From the IMG/VR virus record IMGVR_UViG_3300042301_000093, positions 1 through 24,422 of that record: a DNA stretch of 24,422 nucleotides; one strand, 5' to 3'. The notes beneath the pieces were generated by a model. The model saw nothing but the letters and a program-made list of their open reading frames with translations. It was not told where the DNA came from and made no database searches. Shown piece after piece: positions 948 through 8,859 of this stretch. The DNA comes from a virus. A program made the position numbers and the translations under genes. Position 1 is the stretch's first letter, and each line of letters starts with the position of its first letter.

Positions 948-1183
948 AACACCGCAACTTTTTAGACGAACACGTTGGTAATTGGCATACAGTACAAAAT
1001 GGGTATGTGCGTAATATCGATTTAGACATCTTAAAAATGTACGAGCATATTTATCGCAAGTATATGAGTGCAGATTTTATCTTAACAGTATGGTGTGGTA
1101 ATTGTATCTTCGATATGATTAAACGTTTATACACTTGGTACGAAGAGCAACCTAAACCTAAAAATAAAAAAAAGAATGGCTAA
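938..1183 (+). CDS. Hypothetical protein, 81 residues
   Basis: The ATG at 938 lies inside the end of the upstream membrane-protein gene. It is preferred over an in-frame start at 806 because that longer version would overlap coding sequence by more than 130 bases. The product begins MEIEHRNFLDEHVGNW and is acidic to neutral with a lysine-rich tail (KPKNKKKNG). It carries a WCGNC motif near residue 55, next to a helical FDMIKRLYTWYEE segment. The Cys pair suggests metal or structural binding. No family could be named with certainty. It overlaps the acyltransferase gene by 8 bases, consistent with one operon. Confidence 0.6.
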   Translation: MEIEHRNFLDEHVGNWHTVQNGYVRNIDLDILKMYEHIYRKYMSADFILTVWCGNCIFDMIKRLYTWYEEQPKPKNKKKNG

Positions 1184-1655
1184 CTTTATCCACCCTACCG
1201 CTATAATTGGCGATAACGTAATTATCGGAGACGGAAACTACATTGGTGCTTATTGTATTATTGGAGACCCTGCCGAACATAAGAAGTTTTGGCAAAAAGA
1301 AAAAGGCAAAGTTTACATTGGCGATAACAATGTTATTACAGGACTTGTAACAATAGATGCAGGAACAGAGATAGACACATTCATTGGTAATAATTGCTTC
1401 ATAATGAAACACGCACACATAGGACACGATTGCACAATCTTAGATAATGTTACTATAAGCTGCGGAGCAAAAATAGGTGGGCATTCAATTATTGACAAAG
1501 GTGCTAACATAGGACTAAACGCAGTTCTGCATCAGTTTGCAAACGTAGGAGAAAATTGTATGATAGGTGCAAGTGCTTTTGTTAAAGGAGATGCAAAACC
1601 TAATACTAAATATGCAGGAGTTCCTGCACGAGAAATCGGCTCAAATATAAGATAA
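1176..1655 (+). CDS. LpxA-like left-handed beta-helix acyltransferase
   Basis: The 159-residue protein is built of hexapeptide repeats of the (I/V)GxxxxI type (IIGDNV, IIGDGN, YIGDNN, FIGNNC, HIGHDC), folding as a left-handed beta-helix. It resembles LpxA-type acyltransferases, which transfer an acyl or acetyl group from ACP or CoA to a sugar. His81, His84, His103 and His119 sit in AHIGHDC, GGH and LHQF contexts that match the conserved histidines of bacterial LpxA (122, 125, 144 and 160 in E. coli); His84 would be the catalytic base. It lacks the C-terminal helical domain of full-length LpxA (about 260 residues), so it is unlikely to be a housekeeping lipid A enzyme. Two glycosyltransferase genes follow directly, suggesting joint modification of a glycan. 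Confidence 0.8.
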   Translation: MANFIHPTAIIGDNVIIGDGNYIGAYCIIGDPAEHKKFWQKEKGKVYIGDNNVITGLVTIDAGTEIDTFIGNNCFIMKHAHIGHDCTILDNVTISCGAKIGGHSIIDKGANIGLNAVLHQFANVGENCMIGASAFVKGDAKPNTKYAGVPAREIGSNIR

Positions 1656-2242
1656 TGAATGCAATAGTATACTTAAACTATAAAGATAGGAACATCAATA
1701 CATTGTTTGAGAATATCAAAAATGCGGGTAAGCATATTGATATAGTTACTATCATTAATGAAGAAGGTATAGCATTTGCAACTAATAAAGGCTTAAGGAA
1801 TTTAAACTTTGATAATATAGATTATGTAACTATTATGGGTAACGATATATTAGAACCTGATAATTGGTTGCAAATAAGAAATGACTTTTTACAAGACAAA
1901 ACTATTGGTATTTGTTCTATTCCTTTACATAGTACAGGTAATGACACGGCTGATTTAATTGGTAACTTTACTATAACAAAAGAAACTATAAAAAGAGTTG
2001 GTGCATTCAATCAAGAACTTGACCCATACGGAGCAATAGATTTAGATTATTGTACGAGATGCAGGGCAGCAGGTTTGCATACGAAATTTATTAAAGAATA
2101 TACCGCTAATCATATTGAGCAAAATAGCATTGATGCTTATGGTTACAATAAAAATGAATTAGTACAAAAGACCTGGAGTTTGCATAGCAACAATGTATCT
2201 GCTTATACAAATGGGAATAAAACATATTATATAAACTTATGA
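1655..2242 (+). CDS. Family 2-like glycosyltransferase (GT-A fold)
   Basis: This 195-residue protein has the layout of a compact GT2 enzyme. A Rossmann-like N-terminus is followed by GIAFATNKGLRN, matching the G-x-A-x-A-x-N-x-G core of rhamnosyltransferase-like GT2 proteins. Next come IMGNDI with Asp64 as the nucleotide-sugar or metal-binding acid, and GAFNQELDPYGAIDLDYCTR, which parallels the usual 'VGxFDE...EDxDxxxR' acceptor and catalytic region (Asp128, Asp130). It would transfer an activated sugar to a glycan or protein. The start overlaps the acyltransferase stop by one base (TAATG), and the end overlaps the next glycosyltransferase by 4 bases. Donor and acceptor cannot be read from the sequence. 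Confidence 0.8.
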   Translation: MNAIVYLNYKDRNINTLFENIKNAGKHIDIVTIINEEGIAFATNKGLRNLNFDNIDYVTIMGNDILEPDNWLQIRNDFLQDKTIGICSIPLHSTGNDTADLIGNFTITKETIKRVGAFNQELDPYGAIDLDYCTRCRAAGLHTKFIKEYTANHIEQNSIDAYGYNKNELVQKTWSLHSNNVSAYTNGNKTYYINL

Positions 2243-3234
2243 AAATACTTTGTATAACTTCAGCCAATTCGGGTGTAGGACTGCACCGAATAATGATGCC
2301 TATTGTTTATATGGAAAAAGAGTACGCACTTATTACCGATGTATTGAATGACGAACTACTTGAGCAGGGTTGGGATATTGTGCTAATGAATAGAATGCTA
2401 AACGAAATAAACGCAAAGCAAATGGACACTTGGCGCACCAAGTACGGCTTTAAGTTAGTAGTAGACAATGACGATTACTGGGAACTTAGCGAAAGCCATT
2501 TGTTATATTCAAGATATAAGTTTAATAACATACCTAAACTAATTACCGATTACTTAGAAGTTGCAGACCTTTGCACTTGCACACACGAAAGGTTAGCAAG
2601 TATGATAAGTCCTTACAATAAGAACGTTCACATCTTACCAAACGCATTACCTTACGGGCAAGAGCAGTTCCAGGATAACAAGACCGAAGATTACAAGGTT
2701 AGATTATTTTGGAGCGGTAGCGGAACGCACGAAAGAGATTTAGAAATACTTAGGCAGCCGTTCAAAAGGCTACAAGGTATGAACATAAGAACTGTTATTG
2801 CAGGTTACAATGACGGAGAAAAACCTATATGGGATAAAATGATAGATGCCTTTACTTGTGGTCTTAAACTTAACCCTACTATCTACAACTACGCTAAGGT
2901 TACGGAATATATGGGTGCTTATACGGATAGCGATATTTCAGTTATCCCACTCGTAGATAATAAGTTTAACGCTATGAAGTCAAATCTAAAGGTATTAGAA
3001 ACGGCTGCTAAAAAGAACCCTGCCATAGTTAGCCACGTTAATCCTTACTTAGATATGCCCGTGCATTATGTTAAAAGCCAAAAGGATTGGTATAAACACA
3101 TCAAAGATTTAGTAAGCGATGCGGATATGCGAAAGGAAAGCGGACAAAAGCTATTTGAGTTTTGCCAAAAGAAGTATAACTTTGACGAGATAAATTTAGA
3201 CCGAAAGTATATTTATAGTAAACTATGCCAGTAA
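2239..3234 (+). CDS. Glycosyltransferase, GT-B-like
   Basis: The 331-residue protein begins MKILCITSANSGVGLHRIMM, a typical start of GT4/GT1-like enzymes with a glycine-rich acceptor-side loop. The middle contains VVDNDDYWEL, ADLCTCTHERL and VHILPNALP. The C-terminal half starts with RLFWSGSGTHERDLEIL and continues to DSDISVIPLVDNKFNAMKSNLKVLE, which fits the nucleotide-sugar binding half of phage and bacterial GT-B enzymes. It forms a translationally coupled unit with the GT2 gene (ATGA overlap). The likely role is a second sugar transfer step on the same substrate. That substrate could be host surface polysaccharide, a phage structural protein or, less likely, DNA. Confidence 0.8.
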   Translation: MKILCITSANSGVGLHRIMMPIVYMEKEYALITDVLNDELLEQGWDIVLMNRMLNEINAKQMDTWRTKYGFKLVVDNDDYWELSESHLLYSRYKFNNIPKLITDYLEVADLCTCTHERLASMISPYNKNVHILPNALPYGQEQFQDNKTEDYKVRLFWSGSGTHERDLEILRQPFKRLQGMNIRTVIAGYNDGEKPIWDKMIDAFTCGLKLNPTIYNYAKVTEYMGAYTDSDISVIPLVDNKFNAMKSNLKVLETAAKKNPAIVSHVNPYLDMPVHYVKSQKDWYKHIKDLVSDADMRKESGQKLFEFCQKKYNFDEINLDRKYIYSKLCQ

Positions 3235-7299: not shown

Positions 7300-7421
7300 T
7301 TTACGCTATATGCCTTCTGCTAATTGCAACAGGTTTTGTAATGGCAGCATTATTTGACTACACAATTAAAAACTATGACCCAAAGCACAAAAGAATATAT
7401 AGACAAATATTACGCAAGTGA
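7296..7421 (+). CDS. Micro membrane protein, 41 residues
   Basis: It starts at an ATGA overlap with the 28-residue frame and ends at the TGA 7419-7421. The product MIYAICLLLIATGFVMAALF, then DYTIKNYDPKHKRIYRQILRK, has one transmembrane helix (residues 2-20) and a basic cytoplasmic tail. The two consecutive one-helix proteins could act as a pair. The frame overlaps the next ORF (ATG at 7375) by 47 bases, more than is usual here, so one of the two may be spurious or translated at low level. Confidence 0.45.
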   Translation: MIYAICLLLIATGFVMAALFDYTIKNYDPKHKRIYRQILRK

Positions 7422-7587
7422 GCCTATCAGCATTATGATGTCTAACATAGATGCGACCTATCTGGAGATACTTACCTACTGCAACGAGAAGGGTTACGAA
7501 CCTTCTAAACGTAGATTAAGAAAACCAGAACATAAGTCAGAAATCGGCTTTTTTGACATAGATAATTACAAACCCGAAACAATATAA
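7375..7587 (+). CDS. Hypothetical protein, 70 residues
   Basis: The ATG at 7375 gives MTQSTKEYIDKYYASEPIS and so on. An upstream in-frame TTG at 7354 is less likely as a start. The product is soluble and charged, with a helical N-terminus, a middle reading EILTYCNEKGYEPSKRRLRKP and an acidic aromatic end (GFFDIDNYKPE). No family is recognised. Its position in the run of small genes after the control region suggests an accessory or host-takeover role, which is inference only. Confidence 0.55.
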   Translation: MTQSTKEYIDKYYASEPISIMMSNIDATYLEILTYCNEKGYEPSKRRLRKPEHKSEIGFFDIDNYKPETI

Positions 7588-7664
7588 AATTAGAAATATA
7601 CTTCTAATTAATTAAAAACAAGCTATTTAAAAACAATTATTTAATCAAATTAGAAACATAATTC
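7587..7664 (+). repeat. Direct repeat pair and dyad upstream of small-gene run
   Basis: AAATTAGAAATATACTTC (7587-7604) recurs as AAATTAGAAACATAATTC (7647-7664) with two mismatches, exactly 60 bases apart. The first copy also contains the dyad ATTAGAA-N6-TTCTAAT (7589-7608). The 93-base gap between 7587 and 7681 holds no ORF and no clear TAnnTTTG box. The repeats may be operator sites controlling the genes from 7681 onward. Confidence 0.4.
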
Positions 7665-7667
7665 CAA

Positions 7668-7684
7668 AAACAAATAACCTATGA
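7668..7684 (+). repeat. 17-base leader repeat, copy 1
   Basis: AAACAAATAACCTATGA, which includes the ATG at 7681, is identical to the sequences at 7940-7956 and 8108-8124. It is purine-poor and has no Shine-Dalgarno element. It is likely a translation start context, since A-rich leaders are normal in Bacteroidota. Confidence 0.6.
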
Positions 7685-7956
7685 AAACAGCAATGCAAGA
7701 ATTAATTGATGAGCTTAAATTAATTGAGGCTTATCCTATGTCACCTTTAGTATTAAGAATTGCTACTGATTTACTTGAAAAAGAAAAAGAGCAGATAATA
7801 GATGCAGGTAATGCTTGTTCTATTAAAACAATAGTACATAGAGAAAAACTTGATGAAATGTCTGAAGATGAATTAAGGGATAGTCTTGTTAAGGATACTA
7901 TTTCATATGGAGATGAATACTACAACCAAACCTATAACCAAACAAATAACCTATGA
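7681..7956 (+). CDS. Conserved small phage protein, 91 residues
   Basis: The product begins MKTAMQELIDELKLIEAYP, has the helical core IATDLLEKEKEQIIDAGNAC and ends SYGDEYYNQTYNQTNNL. The 'EKEKEQIIDA...EYYNxTY' pattern is frequent in short proteins of Bacteroidota phages and prophages, always of unknown function as far as I recall. It starts right after the first copy of the 17-base leader, and its last codons contain the second copy, which provides the start of the next gene (ATGA overlap). Codons are A/T-rich compared with the structural genes. Confidence 0.7.
   Translation: MKTAMQELIDELKLIEAYPMSPLVLRIATDLLEKEKEQIIDAGNACSIKTIVHREKLDEMSEDELRDSLVKDTISYGDEYYNQTYNQTNNL
7940..7956 (+). repeat. 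17-base leader repeat, copy 2
   Basis: AAACAAATAACCTATGA overlaps the end of the preceding coding sequence and supplies the ATG at 7953. Because it is both the end of one gene and the start context of the next, it constrains the C-terminus (TNNL) of the upstream protein. Confidence 0.6.
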
Positions 7957-8108
7957 ATGAAGATTTATTATTAGAAGCTGCAAAGCCATTAATTGAGTAT
8001 TTAAATAATAACTATCACCCTCATTGCAAAATTATTGTTGAATGTAATAGCGTTGAGGTACTTGAAGGACTTGAACAATCAATAACAAAAGAATTTATAA
8101 AAGATTAA
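7953..8108 (+). CDS. Conserved small phage protein, 51 residues
   Basis: The frame starts at ATG 7953 (ATGA overlap with the upstream gene) and ends at TAA 8106-8108. The product is MNEDLLLEAAKPLIEYLNNN, then YHPHCKIIVECNSVEVLEGL and a short acidic tail. The pattern 'EAAKPLIxYLxxNxHPHxxxIV...VEVLEG' is one I recall from small ORFs across Bacteroidota phages and mobile elements, so this is very probably real despite its length. No function is known; it is a small alpha/beta protein with no membrane segment. Confidence 0.72.
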   Translation: MNEDLLLEAAKPLIEYLNNNYHPHCKIIVECNSVEVLEGLEQSITKEFIKD

Positions 8109-8124
8109 AACAAATAACCTATGA
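8108..8124 (+). repeat. 17-base leader repeat, copy 3
   Basis: AAACAAATAACCTATGA spans the last base of the preceding stop and the ATG at 8121. A weaker fourth version, AAACAAATAACACAATG, precedes the ATG at 8395. Confidence 0.6.
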
Positions 8125-8390
8125 CACCACAAGAAAAAGCAACAGAATTAGTAGAAAAATTTAAGCCTTATGTAAATGGATATGTTGGTAGCTCAATGCT
8201 AACTAACACAGAATATCCAGAATCAATTTTAAGAAAGGCTAAAGAATGTGCAAGAATAGTAGTAAACGAGATGATTGACAGATTAACATGGCATACAGGT
8301 GCAAGTGATTTAGGCAATACAATTATTGCTGGAGATATTGAATATTGGTATGAAGTGTTACAATCAATCAAATATAACCAAAACAAATAA
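8121..8390 (+). CDS. Conserved small phage protein, 89 residues
   Basis: The protein begins MTPQEKATELVEKFKPYVNG, continues with AKECARIVVNEMIDRLTW and ends EYWYEVLQSIKYNQNK. The 'TPxEKAxELxxKF...AKxCAxIxVxEM...YWxxVxxxI' pattern is widespread in hypothetical proteins of Bacteroidota phages. It is a helical, probably cytoplasmic protein without catalytic motifs. It is the third gene in a row to use the identical 17-base leader, so the three are probably regulated and translated alike. Confidence 0.72.
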   Translation: MTPQEKATELVEKFKPYVNGYVGSSMLTNTEYPESILRKAKECARIVVNEMIDRLTWHTGASDLGNTIIAGDIEYWYEVLQSIKYNQNK

Positions 8391-8394
8391 CACA

Positions 8395-8859
8395 ATGGAA
8401 TTACAACAAATCTTCGAAACAACAAAAGAACAACGCATCGAGTTTACCCACCAATTAATTGAACGCTTAAACGCAGGGGAACTTGACCCGTTAAAAACAC
8501 ATCTTCAAGTTAAAGCCTTAGAGGATATGCTCGAAACACTAAAGGCAAACAAGGACTATAAAGATGCGGTATTACAAGCAGCCGTATTAAACGGCAAGGA
8601 CTTCGAGTATATGAGTGCTAAGTTTAACATTCGCGAGGTCGGAGTTAAGTATGACTATACTAAATGCGAAAGTCCTGCATACGAGGAAATTATGACCGAG
8701 TACAATAGTGCAGCTAAAGCCAAAAAGGATATGGAAGAGTTCCTAAAAAAAGTTCCGCATCAAGGACTTGATATTATTAACGGAGTTACGGGCGAGGTTA
8801 CCAGAGTTTACCCACCTGCTAAGAGTAGCACAACAAGTGTAGCCGTATCCTTAAAGTAA
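8395..8859 (+). CDS. Conserved phage protein, 154 residues
   Basis: The ATG at 8395 is preferred because it follows the A-rich leader; an upstream in-frame start at 8326 would lie within the preceding gene. The protein begins MELQQIFETTKEQRIEFTHQ, has helical segments (ALEDMLETLKANKDYKDAVL), a central IREVGVKYDYTKCESPAYEE, a probable coiled coil (NSAAKAKKDMEEFLKKV) and a beta-like end with GVTGEVTRVYPPAKSSTTS. The 'VGxKYDYxxC...EVxxxYPPxKxSTxS' organisation recurs in Bacteroidota phages. The function is unknown; a DNA-interaction or morphogenesis accessory role is possible. Confidence 0.75.
   Translation: MELQQIFETTKEQRIEFTHQLIERLNAGELDPLKTHLQVKALEDMLETLKANKDYKDAVLQAAVLNGKDFEYMSAKFNIREVGVKYDYTKCESPAYEEIMTEYNSAAKAKKDMEEFLKKVPHQGLDIINGVTGEVTRVYPPAKSSTTSVAVSLK

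Follow-up and report, generated by a model that had tools for sequence, protein, structure and literature searches.

A shared start-codon leader as a likely junction of small accessory-gene cassettes in phages of Bacteroidota-type hosts

Successive small genes of a phage that begin with exactly the same bases raise the question of what these bases are kept for: a signal in translation or regulation, or a joint at which genes are exchanged. The window analysed here, that is the whole stretch of DNA under study, is a 24,422-base IMG/VR virus record with PHROGs matches to terminase, portal and tail-tape-measure proteins, and megablast of the whole window matched no cultured phage. The same phage was also found on a longer contig (G025, 99.99% identity over 10,462 bp) reaching about 12 kb further upstream. 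We infer a Bacteroidota host from TAnnTTTG-like promoters, from relatives of the third gene of the array in Cellulophaga and Tenacibaculum phages, and from one Bacteroidetes MAG.

Leader copies and the cassette slot in the window

An exact scan of the whole window found the 17-mer leader AAACAAATAACCTATGA three times, always on the plus strand and always containing the ATG of an ORF, as the initial annotation had stated. No fourth match was present on either strand with up to 3 mismatches allowed; at this tolerance 0.31 matches are expected by chance, and three matches were reached in 1 of 100 shuffles. The locus comprises the following features:

7375-7587, plus strand: conserved gene ending DIDNYKPETI before its stop, left border of the slot
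7588-8394, plus strand: cassette slot, variable insert between the conserved genes 7375-7587 and 8395-8859
7590-7607, no strand: dyad TTAGAA-N6-TTCTAA, candidate operator before leader 1 (putative function)
7650-7667, no strand: second, imperfect dyad copy TTAGAAACATAATTCCAA
7668-7684, plus strand: leader 1, exact match, ATG at 7681
7681-7956, plus strand: cassette gene 1, MKTAMQEL family, 91 aa, predicted all-helical
7919-7956, plus strand: long junction form TACTACAACCAAACCTATAACCAAACAAATAACCTATGA, coding YYNQTYNQTNNL and a stop
7940-7956, plus strand: leader 2, exact match, ATG at 7953, within the end of cassette gene 1
7953-8108, plus strand: cassette gene 2, 51 aa, matching phrog_16206/phrog_4621 (function unknown)
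8108-8124, plus strand: leader 3, exact match, ATG at 8121
8121-8390, plus strand: cassette gene 3, MTPKEKA family (phrog_21441), 89 aa, three helices
8376-8397, plus strand: hybrid junction, cassette tail AACCAAAACAAATAA joined to CACAATG of the start region of the conserved gene
8395-8859, plus strand: conserved gene MELQQIFE, 154 aa, right border of the slot

Since protein clustering placed the three leader ORFs of the window in different families, the leaders do not stem from gene duplication. The protein of gene 1 had no match in the protein search of cultured phages and its predicted structure no significant PDB match, while the model of gene product 3 gave two matches at E <= 0.001, both to uncharacterised phage proteins; both models are small helical folds. 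Relatives of gene product 3 occur in Cellulophaga phi13:2 (38%) and Tenacibaculum Gundel_1 (34%), and a 91-bp junction query against cultured phages returned three weak matches only (E 0.2-0.8). That the window's genes have an anti-defence-type function would be a guess.

The two TTAGAA-N6-TTCTAA-type dyads, 60 bp apart, precede leader 1 and could be the operator of a phage regulator; related dyad forms precede the first leader in five further loci (L146, L160, L175, L176 and L173).

A close variant of the leader had also been noted before the ATG at 8395. This was borne out, AAAACAAATAAC being identical at 8380-8391 and followed by ACA in place of CT, but the gene it opens does not belong with the small leader genes: it is the conserved neighbour, whose start region is fused to a cassette tail. 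Among relatives of this gene (80 of 198, 95-100% identical) the left neighbour 7375-7587 was found in 79. The slot between the two is empty in 35 of these, with 1-4 nt between the conserved genes, and filled in 44 with 74-1712 bp representing 30 distinct sequences; in the window the filling consists of three leader cassettes. The leader (<=1 mismatch) occurs in only 12 of the 44 filled slots, three of which are the window phage itself (L143-L145). As the other filled slots use other junctions, the slot is a general hotspot for which leader cassettes are one supply.

One relative, L173, follows the window to 7686 and resumes at 8380, and the 20-bp overlap is the leader. Here a single leader connects the left flank with the 8395 homologue, and one copy is present where the genes are absent, the pattern of gain or loss of a repeat-flanked segment. 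L173 could be what recombination between the first and the last junction would leave behind, or the pre-insertion state. Its identity to the window is 92% and 82% on the two sides.

Junctions of this kind could be mimicked by metagenome assembly chimeras joined at the repeat, given that the leader-bearing records listed (80 of the 120) are metagenome contigs and that no cultured phage matched the whole window. The window array, however, was also recovered from three other metagenomes (L143-L145), and a 4-gene array from two (L305, L306), and a repeat of 17-22 bp is shorter than usual assembly words. We consider such an artefact most improbable.

The conserved gene 7375-7587 and some MKTAMQEL proteins (L111, L119, L122) share another tail, KPETI, encoded at their ends by AAACCCGAAACAATATAA, and a second interchangeable junction may exist there.

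Leader sites across viruses and gene identity on either side

The 17-mer was found in at least 120 viral stretches compared with 18 for a control consisting of the reversed leader ahead of the same ATGA, with one match per control stretch. The matches listed, together with the window, comprise 164 leader sites, 158 of them non-redundant, and as they were gathered by exact match, identity inside the 17-mer is by construction. A 15-mer scan lacking the ATG was about half background: 22 of 120 hits continue with CCTATG, 36 have another ATG within 9 nt and 62 have none, the chance figure of 21% being a rough estimate.

From the 158 listed sites, 145 leader-started proteins of at least 20 aa were grouped into 75 families, mostly small and of unknown function, the largest being MKTAMQEL with 32 members. 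Closed leader ORFs at the listed sites have a median length of 69.5 aa and reach at least 30 aa in 132 of 150 cases; 13 sites open closed ORFs below 25 aa, some surely by chance. When 66 representatives, one per group of closed leader genes, were compared with Pfam, PHROGs and PADLOC, matches were confined to single members (glycosyltransferase, DnaB-like, and HNH including PADLOC PtuB1-type HNH models), and no function was common to the representatives in Pfam, PADLOC or, for the best 25 of 28 families, PHROGs.

The leader opens one gene of the glycosyltransferase family phrog_7162, judged from its length and start to be the 331-aa gene of L006, and a 331-aa member without leader lies at 2239-3234 of the window. 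The region 1176-3234, ahead of the terminase, holds glycosyltransferase matches together with a hexapeptide-type acyltransferase-like gene (labelled by eye), and glycan modification encoded by the phage is possible. In L038 and L094 the leader, judged by eye, directly follows the 3' end of an apparent tRNA gene.

The leader also writes the end of the gene before it. One copy had been described as lying within the end of a coding sequence, and indeed copy 2 is inside the end of ORF 7681-7956, whose stop TGA is part of ATGA. The form most frequent in relatives is AACCAAAACAAATAACC, in which the upstream stop TAA lies inside the leader; copy 2 is one A shorter, which shifted ORF 7681-7956 to the later TGA. 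AACCA precedes the leader at 86 of the 158 sites (matches listed plus the window). The longest upstream ORF stops at the in-leader TAA in 87 and at a TGA overlapping the ATG in 12 of the 158 listed sites. NQNK ends 59 of the 92 upstream ORFs of at least 20 aa that stop at the in-leader TAA at the listed sites, and many relatives of the long junction form read YYNQTYNQNK and stop. Across 200 loci, with the window left out, ORFs ending in NQNK have 43 different N-termini versus 12 for the next commonest ending, the number of N-termini being a crude proxy for families. Unrelated proteins therefore have C-terminal residues in common, since these are encoded by the leader that follows. The MTPKEKA consensus ends EIEKL or EIENL, and the window copy, gene 3, ends KYNQNK.

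To locate where gene identity changes, pairs of sites were evaluated in which one flank was at least 75% identical over 80 bp and the other either at least 75% or below 58%, with leader sites differing at no more than 2 of 13 nt. Both flanks were conserved in 7 leader pairs, the upstream flank only in 33 and the downstream flank only in 58, so that 91 of 98 were mosaic, versus 182 of 558 pairs of non-leader starts of small genes and 162 of 395 of large genes; in-between pairs (892 leader, 1865 small, 471 large) were excluded. Most pairs of a leader with a non-leader start were mosaic as well (70 of 72 for small and 26 of 27 for large genes). Two MKTA-type genes with similar first codons made up 33 of the 58 downstream-only pairs, and 58 of 65 leader pairs were mosaic when MKTA-type pairs were removed. 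Restriction to upstream-conserved pairs gave 33 of 40 for the leader versus 56 of 432 for small and 43 of 276 for large genes. In 17 upstream-conserved pairs identity dropped from 0.85-0.93 before the leader through 0.51 to 0.25-0.40 past the ATGA, and in 16 downstream-conserved pairs it rose across the leader from 0.25-0.36 to 0.88-0.96; as these pairs were classed by flank identity, the flank levels are set by selection and only the position of the switch is informative.

Moreover, 127 sites with both neighbours comprised 106 different family adjacencies, an under-count as single linkage puts 91 proteins in one group. The array MKTAMQEL, MNKEEVKN, MKLYTEEQ, MKTAMQEL and the array MKTAMQEL, MNKEEVKN, MIIILTIA exemplify how shared genes appear with different neighbours.

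The initial annotation had also raised the case of leaders that diverge while the genes stay in place. This is what was found outside the pool, in the two families, MTPKEKA and MNKEEVKND, whose members were collected by protein and thus free of leader-based choice. In the MTPKEKA set (80 of 171 relatives, 79 after one whose start was too close to a contig end) no exact leader and a single one with one difference were detected, and of 20 MNKEEVKND relatives 3 had the exact leader and 1 a form with two differences, the remaining 16 having other leaders. Close relatives of the 8395 gene likewise have many different start junctions. Together these data imply that the leader belongs to the junction and not to the gene.

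Five MTPKEKA relatives (L231, L241, L273, L275, L285) show, by eye, another recurring junction, GGAGGTACAGATAT or GGAGGAACTGATAT, which suggests parallel leader pools in other phages.

Translation start, host start context and regulation

A role as the translation-initiation signal of this phage, one of the two functions put forward originally, did not hold for the genome as a whole: the leader is present at only 3 of 33 inspected gene starts of the window, and the others differ from the 13-nt leader at 5 or more positions. The 8395 start, with 7 differences in the ungapped count, scores so because its junction is shifted, and the coordinates 7295 and 10410 among the 33 were off by 1-3 bases, which leaves the leader starts unaffected. 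No leader copy was found in 34 of 40 sampled sibling records with the same backbone, a sample taken from 80 sharing the 8395 gene with several known bearers left out; with the other searched siblings added, 38 of 49 lacked it, some of these records being short fragments. Of 34 whole virus records, 24 of which were selected for the leader and many of which are fragments, 27 carry it (<=1 mismatch) in 1-5 copies each, although records reach up to 110 kb. Within each of the 27 all copies are on one strand, mostly within a few kb, one copy in G014 lying near the opposite contig end; the reversed-leader control had no match in the 34 records.

At those genes that it does open, the leader presumably serves as translation start region in vivo. 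It is an ordinary A-rich start region, as expected in Bacteroidota, and its position-specific score is that of an average start context (71st and 48th percentile). An apparent rank as outstanding start context (99.75th percentile) was rejected, since the underlying starts had been picked for resembling the leader and longest-ORF starts give the average value. In Flavobacterium johnsoniae A at -3 and -6 favours initiation, positions at which the leader has C and T (PMC6847099). The traits of the leader are in line with the Shine-Dalgarno (SD)-less initiation in Bacteroidota described there.

Another alternative is generic convergence, any A-rich start region of Bacteroidota resembling the leader. 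An A-rich block at -13 to -11 is indeed common to the leader, the window-type phages and F. johnsoniae (PMC6847099). Nevertheless, among 2261 ORFs called, starts with 0, 1, 2 and 3 differences from the leader numbered 132, 22, 20 and 31 versus 0, 0, 2 and 12 for the reversed leader, where the exact class is inflated because loci were selected by the leader; near-exact leaders form an outlier class, and the counts refute convergence on the exact sequence. Nor is the motif a common start context of host genes, the finding that the initial annotation had named as refuting its reading: the exact 17-mer was absent from 394 further Bacteroidota genomes, and among all 395 only the centre genome contained it. 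That genome is itself one of two MAGs whose contigs were the only ones with the 21-base form among 84,980 genomes, both having phage-like genes by eye. Convergence is hardly credible on these grounds.

One of these two leader-bearing, phage-like contigs (L224) is in a Candidatus Taylorbacteria MAG, where it is probably misbinned.

A regulatory start signal is a more serious alternative. A phage or host RNA or protein would recognise exactly this leader sequence and co-regulate small early genes, swapping being a by-product. In its favour, the leader adjoins the ATG of many different families, and promoter-like TAnnTTTG sites occurred within 45 nt at 5 of the 24 leaders lacking a nearby upstream ORF versus 3 of the 132 that have one. 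Such a role has been considered for the comparable sequences in mycobacteriophages of cluster K, with a binding partner from either host or phage left open (PMC3203893). Against this explanation, 38 of 49 siblings, some of them short fragments, maintain the backbone without the leader, the same families carry other leaders elsewhere, and the leader is only average as a start context. We regard regulation as the prime function of the leader as rather unlikely.

Proposed cassette exchange and relation to known systems

Read from the sequences, the leader is common to unrelated genes, present in few copies per phage, mostly in short arrays, associated with empty and filled slots, and placed at the junctions. 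We therefore think it likely, on this pattern, that small accessory-gene cassettes, pooled among dsDNA phages of Bacteroidota-type hosts, have the leader as their common 5' junction, and that the leader supplies the homology for their exchange. Running from one leader to the next, a cassette would start with an SD-less A-rich region abutting the ATG, continue with a small gene, and finish on final codons and a TAA stop (AAC CAA AAC AAA TAA, NQNK and stop) that form the upstream part of the next leader. As cassettes begin and finish with the same 17-40 bp, annealing at leaders could insert, delete or swap whole genes in frame, and such swaps would leave start region and stop intact. The window phage would thus carry three cassettes, filling at 7588-8394 a slot that many near relatives leave empty.

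The second function proposed originally, a recombination site that shuffles small genes as cassettes, agrees with the flank mosaics, the slots and L173 as far as the pattern is concerned, but a site dedicated to site-specific recombination is not supported. An integron-like cassette system would fit the cassette-like arrays, whose junctions are identical and in one orientation. Yet neither a tyrosine integrase (PF00589; control genomes 14 of 14 positive) nor a serine resolvase was detected in the 34 records, many of them fragments. Moreover, the leader motif is short, asymmetric and not palindromic, it has no dyad or strong fold (RNA folds of four 71-nt segments showed little structure in 3, a small hairpin of -3.4 kcal/mol being touched at copy 2), and the junctions vary, at times by a few bases. 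A recombinase or integron-like site is accordingly very unlikely.

Exchange by homologous annealing fits the preferred cassette reading better, and would probably proceed via an ERF-type phage single-strand annealing protein or else another homologous pathway. ERF is encoded in 17 of 34 records including G025. RecT was detected in one of these 34 records and, among 19 searched for it, a Rad52 type in one. Among 26 leader-bearing records, the window's own fragment apart, 10 had ERF, 1 RecT and 1 the Rad52 type, and all three were missing in 14, which may be fragments or use another family. Seven leaderless siblings also have ERF, which is thus not linked to the leader. As DNA, the leader is a direct repeat of 17 bp, and up to about 40 bp, at cassette boundaries, which makes annealing at leaders plausible. 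The shared stretch is often only 17-22 bp and the minimum given for Red-beta is 30 bp; Erf of phage D3 recombines identical as well as diverged DNA in lambda (PMC3945230). Furthermore, the terminases of 6 of the leader-chosen records G001-G024 are related to that of the window (70-97% identity) and 18 have no match, so the leader pool probably crosses phage lineages, with the proviso that records may be fragments.

A wider reading, that phages of Bacteroidota use one start sequence both as adaptor and as recombination homology for a wide accessory-gene pool, is put forward tentatively, as a possibility we hold slightly short of even. If true, any gene acquiring the leader could be plugged in frame and ready for translation into the arrays that unrelated phages carry. 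Cassettes would then be traded much as in integrons, but by annealing recombination and without an integrase, and the leader could serve as bait in the search for host-takeover or anti-defence genes. Independently of this, trade in small genes among phages is an old question, for which the leader gives the exchange point with single-base precision, at the start codon. As this point is the same for dozens of unrelated genes, the idea of conserved gene boundaries can be put to the test. In practice the leader is useful, too, as bait in searches for unknown mobile small genes, a kind that includes anti-defence genes; bait of regulatory sequence has succeeded in archaeal viruses (PMC11065993).

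Within the open-licence literature no phage paper was found among the titles listed for the letters of the leader, and a search for leaders or cassettes of Bacteroidetes phages returned work on archaeal viruses only. The PeSL mobile regulatory cassettes of T4-type phages, reportedly described by Arbiol in 2010, resemble the leader in that a regulatory sequence at gene junctions reportedly aids gene shuffling, and PeSL reportedly contains an early promoter and a stem-loop. The leader, unlike PeSL, is little structured and begins at the stop/start junction. Rad52-like phage recombinases, including Erf of D3, recombine short or diverged homologies and have been proposed as drivers of mosaicism (PMC3945230), but they account for mosaicism in general, whereas the leader is a recurrent homology at start codons. 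A precedent is gene 14 of mycobacteriophage Corndog, where a 17-bp direct repeat at the junction is present as a single copy if the gene is missing and gain or loss by recombination at the repeat was proposed (PMC4351075); that repeat is a single case, and the leader serves many families and phages.

By analogy, the nearest known kind is the Start-Associated Sequences (SAS/ESAS) of cluster K mycobacteriophages. There and in Microbacterium cluster EF phages a short conserved sequence precedes the starts of different families, as the leader does at the listed sites; SAS are, as described, nearly all in one orientation, belong to non-structural genes, sometimes contain the upstream stop, and are rare or absent in the hosts tested, all of which applies to the leader (PMC3203893, PMC7302621). 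With regard to the extended inverted repeat of ESAS, the observation is limited to the dyads upstream of leader 1 in the window. In contrast, a genome of cluster K is described as having about 11-19 SAS copies, which mostly lie 3-7 bp ahead of the start, contain an SD core and in about half of the cases follow an inverted repeat, whereas the leader has 1-5 copies, abuts the ATG, and in its 13 nt has no G and hence no SD core (AGGAG); it is also missing in most siblings, is spread over records of very different sizes, and marks exchange junctions (PMC3203893). What appears new here, judged from the sequences, is an SD-less sequence that encodes the C-terminus of the upstream gene, is absent from most siblings, and carries direct evidence of gene change.
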